Shown here: positions 42,638 to 49,623 of the stretch, in pieces | Layout of the letters: each line of letters begins with the position of its first letter | How positions within the stretch are numbered: the stretch's first letter is position 1 | NCBI RefSeq assembly: GCF_002443295.1 | Contig: NZ_BAOS01000020.1 | Coordinates: forward strand, 1-53,940 | From: Candidatus Scalindua japonica | Lineage (GTDB): Bacteria > Planctomycetota > Brocadiia > Brocadiales > Scalinduaceae | Reading direction: 5' to 3' | DNA: 53,940 nt | Position numbers and translations under genes: made by a program | The notes under the pieces: generated by a model | What the model saw: only the letters and a program-made list of their open reading frames with translations | Database searches by the model: none | What the model was told of the DNA's origin: nothing

Positions 42638-43855
42638 TTATCCGGTCTGTGTTATGACTATTTTCGCAAATCGTCGTTTTCCTACTTTTAATATCATACC
42701 GTCTTGTAAACTTACTTCCTGTGCCGGGTCTGTATACTTTTTATCATCAATGCTGACCCCCCCCTGAGTAATCAATCTTCTCGCTTCTCCGTTAGTAGAC
42801 GCGAAACCATGATCCACCAGTAATTTCACTATCCAGATTTTGTGATTATTGCTTTCATTTGATAGGAGCGTTATCTGTGGAATATCATCCGGAATTTTAT
42901 GTTCTTTAAAAATCCTGTCAAATTCACCTGCAACCTTCTCTGCCACCTCGTTATCGTAATACCGGCTAACAATCGCTTTTCCCAGGACTGTCTTTGCCTG
43001 GCGAGGATGCTCTTTCAGCGTGTTATCGATTGCCTCCATAGTCATGTCTGTTGCCAGCTCAAAATACTTACGCATAAGTTCATCGCTTATTTTCATTGTT
43101 TTACCAAAGATCTCTTTCGGATCTTCATATATACCGATATAATTACCCAGGCTTTTACTCATCTTCTTATTCCCGTCAATTCCCTCCAGTAAGGGGGTAG
43201 TAAGTGCGCTTTGCGGCTGCATATTTGCGTCTCTTTGAAGGTCACGGCCCACAAGCAGACTGAATATCTGATCTGTACCACCGATTTCTACGTCGCTTTT
43301 CACCATTATTGAATCGTATCCCTGCATTAACGGATAAATAAATTCGTGAAGGCTGATAGGGACCCCCGAAGAATATCTCTTTGAAAAATCATCTCTCTCC
43401 ATCATTCTGGCAACCGTCATCTTTGAGGCAAGAGTGATTACATCAGTAAATTGCATCTCTTTAAACCATTCGCTGTTGTAACGGATTTCTGTTTTTTCAA
43501 TATCCAGTATCTTTCCAATCTGATCCAGATATGTTTTCGTGTTATTGGCTATGTCTTCATGGGTAAGTTGGGGCCGGGTTTTATTTACTCCGGATGGATC
43601 ACCAACAATTGCCGTATAATCCCCAATGATCAGTACTGCCGTATGACCAAGCTCCTGGAAATTACGCAGTTTATGGATTGGGACCGCGTTTCCAATATGT
43701 ATGTCCGGTGCGGTGGGGTCGAGTCCCAGTTTAACCCGCAATGGAGTTTGTGTCTCTTGTGATTTTGTAAGTTTTTCAATTACCTCTTCCTCACGGACAA
43801 TTTCTATAACTCCTCGTTTAATAATTTCAAGTTGTTCTTCAACGCTCTTAAACAT
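42638..43855 (-). CDS. tyrS: tyrosyl-tRNA synthetase
   Basis: 405-residue class I synthetase charging tRNA-Tyr. 'LGLDPTAPDIHIGNAV' holds the HIGH-like motif and 'KKMSKSLGNYI' the KMSKS loop. The C-terminal S4-like RNA-binding domain includes 'GEARRLITQGGVSIDDKK'. Length fits the TyrZ-like bacterial subtype. Its ATG overlaps the stop of the upstream CPBP protease gene by eight bases. Confidence 0.96.
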   Translation of the reverse strand: MFKSVEEQLEIIKRGVIEIVREEEVIEKLTKSQETQTPLRVKLGLDPTAPDIHIGNAVPIHKLRNFQELGHTAVLIIGDYTAIVGDPSGVNKTRPQLTHEDIANNTKTYLDQIGKILDIEKTEIRYNSEWFKEMQFTDVITLASKMTVARMMERDDFSKRYSSGVPISLHEFIYPLMQGYDSIMVKSDVEIGGTDQIFSLLVGRDLQRDANMQPQSALTTPLLEGIDGNKKMSKSLGNYIGIYEDPKEIFGKTMKISDELMRKYFELATDMTMEAIDNTLKEHPRQAKTVLGKAIVSRYYDNEVAEKVAGEFDRIFKEHKIPDDIPQITLLSNESNNHKIWIVKLLVDHGFASTNGEARRLITQGGVSIDDKKYTDPAQEVSLQDGMILKVGKRRFAKIVITQTG

Positions 43856-44597
43856 GACTTTTCAAAAAATATTTAAAAGAAATTAAAAAAACCAATGTAG
43901 TAGTATTATGACAAACATGAACGGTTATTGAGGCTACTAACGTCCCGGTTTTTTCATATAAATACGCTAACAAAAGTCCTAAAATAAATATTTGTAAAAA
44001 TACATGGGCATTCCAATGTATTAATGCAAACACAAATCCACTGATAAAGATAGTTTGCCTCTTGTCGTAAATAATCCTTACGGCAGATTGCATGAATCCT
44101 CTAAAAAGAATTTCCTCTACAATCGGTGCGGCGAACATCCCAAAGAAAACCATGAAAGCAAGGACCCCGGAAGAGTCCTCTCTGAGAAGATTATTAATAA
44201 TATTTTGCTGCTCAGGGTCTATACCAAACGCTCTCAAGACAAAATCTACTATAAAGCCAGATGCAAGTATAACAGGAAGAATGATCAGGTAATGTTTCAG
44301 GCCGGTTTTAACATCACTTTTCCAGTCACGAATAGTTAAGCCCAATGATACTACAGGCAAACCATATCCTGTTCGGACAATATTAAAAATATAAAGGCAG
44401 GTTAAAATATTTACTACCAGCGACAAACTGAGAAAAACCGTATTCTGTCCAAATCTCTCTACTAAATCTAATCCGGAAATTTGCTTTACTATATATAAAA
44501 AAACAGGGATCCCCGCAAACATCATAAGTAAATAAAACAGGAAAACCTTAAATATATCCCTTAAACTCCAATGTTTATCACCACGTGAAAGTTCCAA
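43848..44597 (-). CDS. CPBP family intramembrane metalloprotease
   Basis: 249 residues with about six to seven transmembrane helices. Signature motifs: 'PIVEEILFRGFMQS' (E-E-x-x-x-R) and 'FALIHWNAHVFLQIF' with the first metal-binding His, and a further His in 'ASITVHVCHNTTT'. Start is TTG at 44597 in the predicted frame; a later start is possible. Members process prenylated or membrane proteins, or serve in bacteriocin immunity; substrate unknown. Coupled to tyrS by overlap. Confidence 0.87.
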   Translation of the reverse strand: MELSRGDKHWSLRDIFKVFLFYLLMMFAGIPVFLYIVKQISGLDLVERFGQNTVFLSLSLVVNILTCLYIFNIVRTGYGLPVVSLGLTIRDWKSDVKTGLKHYLIILPVILASGFIVDFVLRAFGIDPEQQNIINNLLREDSSGVLAFMVFFGMFAAPIVEEILFRGFMQSAVRIIYDKRQTIFISGFVFALIHWNAHVFLQIFILGLLLAYLYEKTGTLVASITVHVCHNTTTLVFLISFKYFLKSHV

Positions 44598-44692: not shown

Positions 44693-45220
44693 TTACCGTT
44701 TCTTGCTTTTAGCCGCTGCCTTCTTCTTTGTTGTTACCTTTTCTACTGTCTTTTTTACCGTCTTCTTCTCCGCCTTTTTCTCTTCTTCTTTTTTTGCCTC
44801 TACTTTTTTCTTCTTTTTTCCTGCTTCTTTTACCTGTTTCTTAATATTTTTTATGTAATCCTCATATTCATCTTCATCCATCAGGGAATCAAGGTTATCA
44901 TCTTCAGCCAACCGGACCTTAATGAACCAGCCATCTCCATAGGGATCTTTCTGCAAAGTTTTTAAACTGGTAGACAAATCGGTGTTTACCTTCACAATTT
45001 CACCACTTAGTGGCGCTATTAAGTCATGCAGGGTATTTATGGATTCGATTTCACCATATGAAATACCATAAATAACTTCTTCTCCGACTTTTGGCAGACA
45101 AAGGTCTATGAGATCTCCCAGCGCGTCAGTAAGATAATCAGTTATTCCAATTGTTACTACTTTCCTTTTTAACTCAATCCAGTTATGTTCCGGAGCATAT
45201 TTAATTTTTGCTTTTTTCAT
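44693..45220 (-). CDS. GcvH-like protein lacking the lipoyl lysine, with H1-like tail
   Basis: 175 residues. Residues 1-125 follow glycine cleavage H protein closely ('HNWIEL', 'VTIGITDYLTDALGDLIDLCLPKVGEEV', 'GEIVKVNTDL', 'DPYGDGWFIKVRL'). At the lipoyl site 'ES[IV]K' the sequence is 'ESIN', so Asn62 replaces the modified Lys. Residues about 130-175 are a Lys/Ala/Glu-rich, histone-H1-like tail. No gcvT or gcvP nearby. It cannot carry lipoate at the usual site, so it is a repurposed H-fold protein, perhaps nucleic-acid or scaffold-binding. Confidence 0.86.
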   Translation of the reverse strand: MKKAKIKYAPEHNWIELKRKVVTIGITDYLTDALGDLIDLCLPKVGEEVIYGISYGEIESINTLHDLIAPLSGEIVKVNTDLSTSLKTLQKDPYGDGWFIKVRLAEDDNLDSLMDEDEYEDYIKNIKKQVKEAGKKKKKVEAKKEEEKKAEKKTVKKTVEKVTTKKKAAAKSKKR

Positions 45221-45221
45221 T

Positions 45222-45785
45222 TTAGTTTAATATAAAATTGTTTAATCTCGTATAAATTGGCCCTCTTGGGGTTAACTTACTTTGTATTAACGACAGAGAT
45301 GTGACTTTTTCAAGGCCGAAGAAACAATCTGTTCCGGAGCACAACGCATTTTTGAGTTTGGAAATCTTTCTCTGTGATTTGACTCTGCCGAGTGTAATAT
45401 GTCCAACGTATTTTCCTGATTCCTTTCTTATACCAAGCCGCTCAACTCCTTTGTCGAGTTTCTCATGGATTCTGCGAAGATCATTGCCTCGCTCCTGCAC
45501 ATAGACATAAACCACTCGCGGGTTCTTAAGACCTGGAAATGCCCCAATATTCCCAATGCTTATACTGAATGGCCTTACGCCGGAAGCAGCATCATTAATA
45601 ATCTGATTCAAGTTTGTAAGCACCTCCTCATCTATATTTCCAATAAATTTCAGAGTCAAGTGGATATTCTCAGGAGCAACCCACCTGACATCAGCGCCTG
45701 TCCTCTTTAACTTGCTCAAGTATTCAGATAGTTTGTTCTTTATATCACTATCAATTTCTATTGCGATAAATACTCTAATAGTCAT
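45222..45785 (-). CDS. thpR: RNA 2',3'-cyclic phosphodiesterase
   Basis: 187-residue 2H phosphoesterase. Both H-x-T/S-x motifs are present: 'IHLTLKFIGN' (about 41-50) and 'GHITLGRVK' (about 128-136). These hydrolyse 2',3'-cyclic phosphates on RNA ends to 2'-phosphates. Length is normal for ThpR/LigT. It lies one base upstream of the GcvH-like start and 35 bases after gltX, so the three share a transcript. Confidence 0.94.
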   Translation of the reverse strand: MTIRVFIAIEIDSDIKNKLSEYLSKLKRTGADVRWVAPENIHLTLKFIGNIDEEVLTNLNQIINDAASGVRPFSISIGNIGAFPGLKNPRVVYVYVQERGNDLRRIHEKLDKGVERLGIRKESGKYVGHITLGRVKSQRKISKLKNALCSGTDCFFGLEKVTSLSLIQSKLTPRGPIYTRLNNFILN

Positions 45786-45820: not shown

Positions 45821-47140
45821 TTAGTCTGATAAAAAAGTATTTATTGCGTATTCCAGTCTCTTCAGGGTCTTTTCTTTACCTAAAAGTTCTAAACTTTCAA
45901 AAATTCCCGCGCTGGCACTTTTTCCTATAAGAGCAACTCTTATTGGTTGGGCCAATTTACCAAACCCAATATTATGTTCAGTTGTTATCGACCGCAAACA
46001 ATTTTCTAATTCCTCAATTGACGAGAAGTCTCTGATTTCCTTCAGTTTCCTGTAAGCATCTTCTACTAAAGACAAATTACCCTTTTTCAGATGCTTTCGT
46101 ACTGCCGCGTCTTCATACTCAATTTCATCAGAAAAAAACGGTGCAGCTAATGTTACAAACTCCGGTAGCGTTCTAAACCTCTCTTTATATAACTCTACGA
46201 GCTTATGCAACCATTCAGCTGACACTACATCATTATCTAAATTTGCATCTTTTATATATGGTTGTAATTCACTGACAAGTTTGCCAACCGGCAGATTTTG
46301 AATATATTTGCTGTTCATCCAGTCAAGCTTTGCAAAATCGAAACGTGAACTGGTTTTATTAACTCGTTTCAGAGTAAACTTCTCTATCATCTCCTGCCTG
46401 GTTAAAAGTTCCTGATCATGCCCTGGCGACCAACCAAGCAGCGCTATAAAATTAACCAGAGCATCAGGCAAATAACCTTTCACGCGATAATCCGTTACAG
46501 ATGTCGCTCCGTGGCGCTTACTCATGCGGGAGCCATCTTCTCCAAGAATCATTGGAATATGAGCAAACTCTGGCAAGTTAAAACCCAATGCTTTGTAAAG
46601 AGCAACCTGCCTTGGCGTATTGGAGAGATGATCATCTCCACGTATAATGTGTGTAATTCCCATTACCCCGTCATCAACAACACACGCAAAGTTATATGCA
46701 GGGAAGCCGTCTGCTTTCTGTATAATAAAATCTTCAATAAGGGAAGTGTCTGAATGAATATTTCCATGAACCATATCATCAAAACTGGTCTGCTCCCCCG
46801 TAATTTTAAAACGTACAGCCCTCCCTTTCTCCGGATCGTCTACATGATACGCTTTGTCCTCCTGCAATAATTTTTCTACGTATTCATTGTATATCTCAAG
46901 CCTGTCGCTCTGATGATACGGACCTTCATCCCAATCTAAGCCAAGCCATGTCATACTATCCAGAATTGCCTGAGTTGCCTCTTCGGTAGAACGCTGCCTG
47001 TCGGTATCTTCAATCCTCAATACCATTTTCCCGTTATTGTGTCTGGCAAAAAGCCAGTTATAGAGAGCTGTCCTCGCGCCTCCAATATGCAGAAAACCTG
47101 TGGGGCTGGGTGGAAATCTTACTTTAACATTTGAATCCAT
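45821..47140 (-). CDS. gltX: glutamyl-tRNA synthetase
   Basis: 439-residue class I synthetase. 'RFPPSPTGFLHIGGARTALYN' region holds the HIGH-like motif and 'EDGSRMSKRHGA' the KMSKS equivalent; 'FACVVDDGVMGITHIIRGDDHLSNTP' is the substrate core. It is about 30-50 residues shorter than typical GltX, mostly in the anticodon-binding part, but no frameshift is seen. Next to argC, with an 11-base gap. Confidence 0.96.
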   Translation of the reverse strand: MDSNVKVRFPPSPTGFLHIGGARTALYNWLFARHNNGKMVLRIEDTDRQRSTEEATQAILDSMTWLGLDWDEGPYHQSDRLEIYNEYVEKLLQEDKAYHVDDPEKGRAVRFKITGEQTSFDDMVHGNIHSDTSLIEDFIIQKADGFPAYNFACVVDDGVMGITHIIRGDDHLSNTPRQVALYKALGFNLPEFAHIPMILGEDGSRMSKRHGATSVTDYRVKGYLPDALVNFIALLGWSPGHDQELLTRQEMIEKFTLKRVNKTSSRFDFAKLDWMNSKYIQNLPVGKLVSELQPYIKDANLDNDVVSAEWLHKLVELYKERFRTLPEFVTLAAPFFSDEIEYEDAAVRKHLKKGNLSLVEDAYRKLKEIRDFSSIEELENCLRSITTEHNIGFGKLAQPIRVALIGKSASAGIFESLELLGKEKTLKRLEYAINTFLSD

Positions 47141-48171: not shown

Positions 48172-48612
48172 TAATTATCTCCGTATTTCAAGGCAATAAG
48201 ACTCATACGCTTGAAAAAATTCAATGTTATAACACTTCGGCTCAACTCAATGTGATGTCATCCTGAGCCCCCGCCTGTACCGGATCGGACTGGGAGTAAA
48301 AGGATTGTCTCTTGTCGCGTAGCAACCTAACTTGTTAAAATACAATTACTTTTGGATAATAACAACCCTTTCCAAAAACGTCAAATCCAAAATTTACCGT
48401 TATCAATTAAGTGAAAAGAAGTACCGTTTTTAATAGTGTCAAGGAGAAACGAGCCAGAGAAAAGGCAACACATAAATTACTACAGAAATAGAAAGTATGG
48501 TAATAACATTTCAATATAAATGAGGTATAAAGTTTGTGCCTTGACACTCAATTATTTGTTTGGTAGATTAAAAGATGTTATTCATTTAAACAATTTTTCA
48601 GGTAATACTAAA
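48172..48612. other. divergent intergenic region, no gene
   Basis: About 440 bases between the divergent argC and TPR genes, so it should hold both promoters, but no strong -35/-10 pair stands out. A GC-rich GCCCGCCTGTACCGG word at about 48271 resembles the CCTGCCGG words of 42.6 and 44.6 kb. An upstream ATG at 48520, in frame with the TPR gene, has no RBS. Confidence 0.4.
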
Positions 48613-49623
48613 ATGAAAAAATTTCTCTTTTTACCAATACTATTTATGGCTTTTTTCATGATGTTTTTTGTAACATCATCGCAGGGTGCCGACAATTTTA
48701 AGGAATTTTATAATAAAGGTATTGAATTTTATAAACAGGGCAAATACGATCAAGCAGGAAAAGAATTTAATAAAGCAATAGAATTAAAACCTAATGATGT
48801 TTACGCCCTTTATGGATTGGGGAACACATATTATTGTAAGGCAAAGTATGATGATGCTGTCAAAGTTTACACTAAGGCAATCAATATAAATCCTGATTAT
48901 GCCAAGGTGCACTATTCACTGTCTCTTGCCTATAGTAAATTGGGAATGACACGTGAAGCGGAAAAGCAGAAGACAATGTTCAGAAAATTGTCTCAAGGAG
49001 GAAAAAGTGGCGGTTCATCATCGCATACGAAAGCATCACACACCAGTTCTCACGCAAAAGTTGAACACACCCCAAAAAAATCCTTATCTCATGCTCCAAA
49101 AAAATCTTTGCATGAAACGAAACGAACAGACACGCATGCGGCAAGTGGACACCAGGCGAAAACACAAGACACACATGCGGCAAGTGGACACCAGGCAAAA
49201 ACACAAGACACACATGCGGCAAGTGGACACCAGGCAAAAACACAAGACACACATGCGGCAAGTGGACACCAGGCAAAAACACAAGACACACATGCGGCAA
49301 GTGGACACCAGGCGAAAACACAAGACACACATGCGGCAAATAAGCATGATGGTAGAGGAAGTTCAAACTCAATCTTCAAAGGTTATTCAGGGGAAACACA
49401 TGAAGCAGATAAACGTGTTTTTAAGAATAAAAGTCGTGGAACATATAGTTTTTCGAAAAAACCCTATAGTCGCGTTAAATATTTTATTCAGGATAAATGG
49501 TTTGCGTCCGGCATAAATAAAATATGGATTTGCACTGCCGGCTATCTTTTTGGAATTCAGATATGGCTTTGCGTGGTAGCGTTCTTTTGCCTGGTATTGT
49601 GGAGAATCCGAGAGAAGGCATGA
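48613..49623 (+). CDS. exported TPR protein with 13-residue tandem repeat
   Basis: 336 residues from the ATG at 48613, chosen because it begins a signal peptide ('FLFLPILFMAFFMMFFVTSSQGA') and has an AGG about ten bases upstream. Three TPR units follow ('FKEFYNKGIEFYKQGKYDQA', 'DVYALYGLGNTYYCKAKYDDA', 'YAKVHYSLSLAYSKLGMTREA'). Then a low-complexity Ser/His/Lys region, five copies of THAASGHQAKTQD plus a partial sixth, and a C-terminal transmembrane helix with a basic end ('FFCLVLWRIREKA'). Likely an envelope scaffold. Repeat copy number may vary. Confidence 0.85.
   Translation: MKKFLFLPILFMAFFMMFFVTSSQGADNFKEFYNKGIEFYKQGKYDQAGKEFNKAIELKPNDVYALYGLGNTYYCKAKYDDAVKVYTKAININPDYAKVHYSLSLAYSKLGMTREAEKQKTMFRKLSQGGKSGGSSSHTKASHTSSHAKVEHTPKKSLSHAPKKSLHETKRTDTHAASGHQAKTQDTHAASGHQAKTQDTHAASGHQAKTQDTHAASGHQAKTQDTHAASGHQAKTQDTHAANKHDGRGSSNSIFKGYSGETHEADKRVFKNKSRGTYSFSKKPYSRVKYFIQDKWFASGINKIWICTAGYLFGIQIWLCVVAFFCLVLWRIREKA
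49132..49342 (+). repeat. 39-bp in-frame tandem repeat
   Basis: Five full units plus a partial sixth starting ACRCATGCGGCAAGTGGACA. Units differ only at single bases (ACG/ACA at the first codon of unit 1; GCG/GCA Ala in units 1 and 5 versus 2-4). Unit length is divisible by three, so copy changes keep the frame. Near identity suggests recent expansion. Confidence 0.95.

Follow-up and report, generated by a model that had tools for sequence, protein, structure and literature searches.

A lysine-free paralogue of the glycine cleavage H-protein, with a basic tail, in Candidatus Scalindua japonica and its relatives

GcvH-like proteins that are active outside glycine cleavage are already known. 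One such paralogue, GcvH-L, is lipoylated. It belongs to a sirtuin/macrodomain system (PMC4518038; PMC10789625) and is a carrier protein that is reversibly ADP-ribosylated (PMC10789625). LbpA, a GcvH-like paralogue of Hdr-like (sHdr) sulfur oxidation, has likewise been recruited to another pathway, and 95 of 95 LbpA proteins share a strictly conserved lysine (PMC6067878). The nearest parallel to the protein described here, likened to it by description, is the eukaryotic Simiate/FAM206A (Abitram), which is also related to the H-protein and serves another function. Simiate is not known to have a lipoyl site. It has been proposed to be an H-protein descendant working outside glycine cleavage, has about 20% identity to GcvH, and was reported to be absent from bacteria (PMC3859600). 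The chlamydial 'not_gcvH' (TIGR03077) and GcvH_rel_desulf (NF045810) are also GcvH-related and are named apart.

We analyzed a stretch of 53,940 nucleotides from Candidatus Scalindua japonica, here called the window. It encodes a protein with the same full-length domain as GcvH (PF01597; 3klr, 1onl, 3a7l) and a predicted fold about 1.1 to 1.6 Å from these structures. Unlike GcvH, the protein belongs to a clade in which the lipoyl lysine is replaced, the hairpin is relaxed, linkage to gcvT or gcvP is absent, and the gene is kept without glycine cleavage; the window protein also has an added basic tail. GcvH-L (5a35) is a structural match (E 4e-7) but only 19% identical, and no sirtuin or macrodomain gene was seen near the window gene. 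The window protein lacks the conserved lipoyl lysine by which LbpA proteins are recognized, and it scores 58.5 bits with the 'not_gcvH' model (cut-off 144.05) and 30.5 with GcvH_rel_desulf (cut-off 150). A literature search, with subscription papers largely outside it, returned nothing on a GcvH of anammox bacteria that lacks the lysine; this speaks only weakly for novelty.

The window protein and its lipoyl site

The gene, its domain, and its lipoyl position lie as follows.

44693..45220, minus strand: lysine-free GcvH paralogue, whole open reading frame (175 aa, ATG start)
44843..45220, minus strand: H-protein (GCV_H) domain, residues 1-126, from Pfam, predicted structure, and Foldseek
45035..45037, minus strand: codon 62 (AAT, Asn), the lipoyl-lysine position in the beta-hairpin turn, from alignment with canonical GcvH

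The Pfam GCV_H family (PF01597) matches residues 7-125 at 108 bits (E 3.8e-31, cut-off 22.2), covering the full-length domain that is expected of a GcvH. The protein scores above the cut-off of the NCBIfam GcvH subfamily model PRK01202 (120.8 against 117) and below that of the GcvH equivalog TIGR00527 (107.9 against 115.85 bits). AlphaFold2, run on the alignment of relatives, predicted an H-protein fold with domain pLDDT mostly above 90, and in a Foldseek search with this model the 22 best-matching solved structures were all H-proteins, with GcvH-L ranked last of these. Against the bovine H-protein 3klr, the predicted fold gave a TM score of 0.94 (normalized by target) at 1.1 Å. The first-pass annotation, made from the sequence alone, had described the H-protein fold as well kept, and both the domain match and the predicted fold agree. 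Relatives of the protein that bear names are mostly Candidatus Scalindua, plus another Brocadiaceae record.

Asn62 ('GEIESINTLHDL') aligns under the lipoyl lysine of canonical GcvH ('VVESVKSVSDV') with no gap nearby, which bears out the replacement of that lysine by asparagine noted at first pass. The lysine in the hairpin turn is absent from the window protein and from all clade members read. In lipoyl domains, lipoylation is abolished when the modified lysine is shifted by as little as one residue. Direct reading of the window protein found no lysine within 5 residues on either side of Asn62, and a displaced nearby lysine was rejected for the clade, since among 42 proteins a lysine occurs at +1 in three, at +3 in one, and at +4 in one, and otherwise not within 5 residues. 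The first-pass reading would have yielded to a lipoylatable lysine one or two residues away, and from the sequences of these 42 proteins none is conserved near the site. A strain mutation or sequencing error was likewise rejected, because the loss recurs across the order. The window protein thus lacks the tested defining feature of GcvH as a lipoyl carrier and is a GcvH-fold paralogue.

In the same genome, a canonical GcvH (ESVK) directly adjoins gcvP on contig 13, where lipA and the two halves of the P-protein are also encoded nearby, and gcvT is located on contig 5. The window protein is therefore a second, separate copy. The first-pass annotation had seen no other glycine cleavage gene near it and had proposed looking for a canonical GcvH elsewhere; the canonical genes do sit on other contigs, with the ESVK-type GcvH beside gcvP and lipA.

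Spread, single origin, and constraint

A profile search placed the lysine-free paralogue in 59 of 62 Brocadiales genomes and found none in G026, G038, or G043. The residue at the lipoyl position was read in 56 of the 59 (G011, G020, and G041 were left out) and is N, D, E, S, or H, mostly one of the first four and never K; among these 56, the copy in G013 is truncated. The copy in G046 (L063, G046:C12:238449-238802), also one of the 56, is broken by two stops, one TGA and one TAG, and is either a pseudogene or an assembly error. The broken copy and the three genomes without the gene may mean that the gene is dispensable or that the assemblies are incomplete. Elsewhere in the class, the lysine-free paralogue is present in 10 of 13 genomes, with E, D, Q, A, or R at the site; G064 has lysine-bearing GcvH copies only, and no lysine-free paralogue was found in G069 or G074, which are 67 to 70% complete. 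In the rest of the phylum, all 20 GcvH read keep the lysine (a sample of mostly best-scoring matches), as do all of the few seen from other phyla. The first-pass reading depended on close relatives keeping both the substitution and the tail, and other Scalindua species do have orthologues that show both. One record, under the title 'Deltaproteobacteria bacterium' (L003), contains an 87% identical gene in the Scalindua gene order and is probably a mislabelled or contaminated MAG.

In a tree of 93 GcvH domains, all 42 lysine-free rows fall on one side of a single branch (bootstrap 97, SH-aLRT 87), and the state of the lipoyl site requires one change, the loss of the lysine. The tree was built with the lipoyl column removed and comprises only 119 columns, and its deeper order is weak. 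The canonical GcvH of Brocadiales clusters with proteins of other phyla, and the lysine-free one with planctomycetal GcvH; this would suggest that the lysine was lost from an ancestral planctomycetal GcvH and that a working GcvH was acquired later. However, an AU test did not reject the topology holding canonical and lysine-free Brocadiales GcvH together, as a recent duplication would have it (p 0.127). Within the window's family, canonical GcvH occurs in two distant clades (L001 and L021-L028 versus L035-L040), and the working GcvH has therefore probably been swapped there at least once. Several Brocadiales also encode a third type of GcvH (L064, L067, L071, L073, L076, L079, L080, L082, and L107), which has a 'LEAGKYIGPLKAP' site and a conserved acidic extension at the C terminus; it keeps the lysine and forms a long-branch clade.

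Across nine Scalindua-group pairs, dN/dS of the domain was 0.10 to 0.29. The fold residues H12, W14, G25, E59, W98, and Y119 do not vary in the 42 lysine-free proteins. At the V, K, and A positions of the hairpin, entropy was 2.54, 2.31, and 3.35 bits in the lysine-free clade versus 0.15, 0, and 1.03 in lipoylated GcvH, and the positions of Ala30 and Asp36 are likewise free in the lysine-free clade. An invariant core with a free hairpin is the pattern that would be expected if the fold were kept and cofactor handling dropped. One further stretch differs between the two groups and is a possible new contact surface:

45062..45073, minus strand: residues 50-53, of which positions 50 and 53 are hydrophobic in the lysine-free clade and polar or charged in lipoylated GcvH

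Gene neighbourhood and independence from glycine cleavage

The window gene is flanked by the following genes.

45222..45785, minus strand: thpR, RNA 2',3'-cyclic phosphodiesterase family, from profile matches; separated from the start codon of the gcvH-like gene by one base
45821..47140, minus strand: gltX, glutamyl-tRNA synthetase, operon context
43848..44597, minus strand: CAAX-type (Rce1-like) membrane protease, operon context
42638..43855, minus strand: tyrS, tyrosyl-tRNA synthetase, operon context

The tRNA synthetases and RNA phosphodiesterase that had been noted as neighbours are thus confirmed, and thpR and the gcvH-like gene are probably in one operon. In eukaryotic synthetases, Lys-rich helical extensions bind tRNA. 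These features would fit a cofactor on the RNA side, in which the basic helix of the Scalindua relatives serves as a general tRNA/RNA-binding appendage for the products of gltX, tyrS, and thpR. The order argC-gltX-thpR-gcvH'-CAAX-tyrS is conserved in the window's family (f1), a single base separates the thpR stop from the gcvH' start, members in family f3 lie beside miaA and an HD-domain (HD/OB) hydrolase, and those in f2 have a CCA-adding enzyme near, together with nifU-like and cytochrome genes. However, in f4 and f5 the gene is next to DUF1611 and an enolase-superfamily epimerase, aspartate-semialdehyde dehydrogenase adjoins it in f8 and part of f9, and RNA genes commonly neighbour anything; we consider this account unlikely. 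The neighbourhood of RNA genes is particular to one family, and no conserved genomic partner was found across the families of the lysine-free clade. As no neighbour is common to all families, the surrounding genes do not point to a function, and the RNA-related neighbourhood does not carry the nucleic-acid role proposed at first pass. Nucleic-acid binding by the window protein would be argued from its charge. Elsewhere in the window, a TPR protein at 48520-49623 on the plus strand contains about five near-identical copies of a 'KTQDTHAASGHQA' unit, arranged in tandem.

Eight genomes (G005, G061, G062, G063, G065, G070, G071, and G072) keep the lysine-free protein with no match to GcvT, no GcvP over threshold, and no ESVK-type GcvH. 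Three of these outside Brocadiales (G062, G063, and G065) and the Brocadiales genome G005 (94%) are 92 to 94% complete. The lysine-free protein is the sole GcvH-family match in six of the eight, G005 and G061 adding the third type (LEAGK). The co-occurrence with GcvP and GcvT that is expected of a GcvH is thus missing, and an essential link to glycine cleavage was rejected because the gene is kept in genomes without GcvP and GcvT. Subject to MAG completeness, the gene content of these genomes excludes glycine cleavage as the essential function of the lysine-free protein.

A regulatory part in glycine cleavage is a separate matter. A cargo-free H-protein could act as a decoy that occupies GcvP, GcvT, GcvL, or the lipoylation enzymes and damps flux, and retention of the H-protein fold and many surface residues would suit such a role, as would the canonical GcvH and GcvP that most anammox genomes also contain. 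LipA was found in 12 of the 13 genomes searched for it, including all of the eight above except G061, which leaves a possible connection with the assembly of lipoate on other carriers. The persistence of the protein in those eight genomes tells against a decoy, and we regard this role as quite unlikely. The lysine-free H-protein is very probably non-lipoylated and repurposed. The first-pass annotation had proposed a recruited, non-lipoylated protein. This view has gained from the lack of a site lysine in about 60 distinct relatives, from the lack of a lysine conserved nearby, and from the relaxed hairpin and the single clade; it has also gained from purifying selection on the gene and from its persistence in genomes that have no GcvP, GcvT, or canonical GcvH.

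The basic tail and a possible adaptor role

The C-terminal extension of the window protein is as follows.

44696..44842, minus strand: Lys-rich C-terminal tail, residues 127-175, from composition and predicted structure

It had been estimated at about 45 Lys/Ala-rich residues, close to the 49 measured. These include 23 K, 1 R, and 7 E, for a net charge of +17, against -11 for the H domain, and AlphaFold2 predicted a low-confidence helix running into disorder. In Brocadiales, the median fraction of K+R in the last 20 residues is 0.45 in lysine-free proteins versus 0.10 in canonical GcvH; neighbouring proteins, taken as background, have a mean of 0.17 and a 95th percentile of 0.45, so that about 5% reach that value. 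Tails are 31 to 83 aa long in the window's genus, about 17 to 31 in most f4 genomes, and 7 to 10 in f3, and within one family they span 83 aa down to 4 aa. In f5 the C terminus is close to neutral, and most of f9 have an acidic one. Two anammox families thus have a long basic tail and others a variable or short one, whereas most non-anammox relatives lack it or end in an acidic stretch. Because several relatives with the lysine loss have a short, neutral, or acidic C terminus, the two traits are separable in evolution; as read from these sequences, the tail is younger than the lysine loss, a later and variable addition. Its shortness in f3, neutrality in f5, and acidity in most of f9 also indicate that it is not essential to the core role.

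The tail was considered as an anammox marker and the link found to be loose: hydrazine synthase alpha matches occur in f1 to f4, including f3 with its tails of 7 to 10 aa. The hydrazine synthase alpha domain PF18582 also has 11 and 16 matches, in long ORFs, in G064 and G065, which lie outside Brocadiales; it is a poor anammox marker there and probably covers more than the hydrazine synthase of anammox bacteria.

The charge of the tail suggests a polyanion ligand. A Lys/Ala-rich, low-complexity tail is a feature of histone-H1-like and HU-tail nucleoid proteins, and this one (K 23, A 6, V 5, and T 4 of 49), with its repeat-like length variation within the genus, has that feature. The protein could accordingly be a nucleoid protein whose H domain merely oligomerizes or anchors. 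However, tail length varies between 83 and 4 aa within a single family, sister lineages have no such tail, and its composition would equally fit RNA, DNA, phospholipid, or polyphosphate, which makes a nucleoid protein distinctly improbable. A decaying pseudoparalogue or assembly artefact without function, to which the broken copy and the three genomes without the gene might point, is very improbable given the dN/dS values, the invariant core residues, and the presence of the gene across the order and class.

We favour, at a probability of roughly 0.6, an old H-protein paralogue that lost its lysine once and is now a non-catalytic adaptor with a polyanion-holding tail. An old glycine-cleavage H-protein paralogue would have lost the lipoyl lysine in an ancestor inside the class of the anammox bacteria, and purifying selection would afterwards have kept it for a role outside glycine cleavage. 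Lacking a swinging arm, it would shuttle neither aminomethyl groups nor electrons and may serve as a binding or adaptor module, with the domain gripping a protein partner, perhaps via the newly hydrophobic surface at residues 50-53. A basic C-terminal extension was added in anammox lineages and, where present, would hold the protein to a polyanion, most likely RNA, the ribosome, or DNA. An adaptor with a polyanion-binding tail is plausible on the features of the protein. More tentatively, the paralogue may represent a class-wide family in which the H-protein fold became a non-catalytic adaptor that, in anammox bacteria, joins a protein partner to RNA, the ribosome, or the nucleoid, an independent bacterial parallel to Simiate/Abitram.

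Whereas the known bacterial GcvH paralogues recruited elsewhere, LbpA and GcvH-L, still bear lipoate, this class retains an H-protein that would not be lipoylatable, and in some of its members the lysine-free protein is the last remaining GcvH. Automatic annotation would call it a working GcvH, and the glycine cleavage or reductive glycine pathway would then be misassigned to genomes without it. The lysine-free gcvH is a defined, testable gene present in nearly all of the anammox-order genomes sampled.
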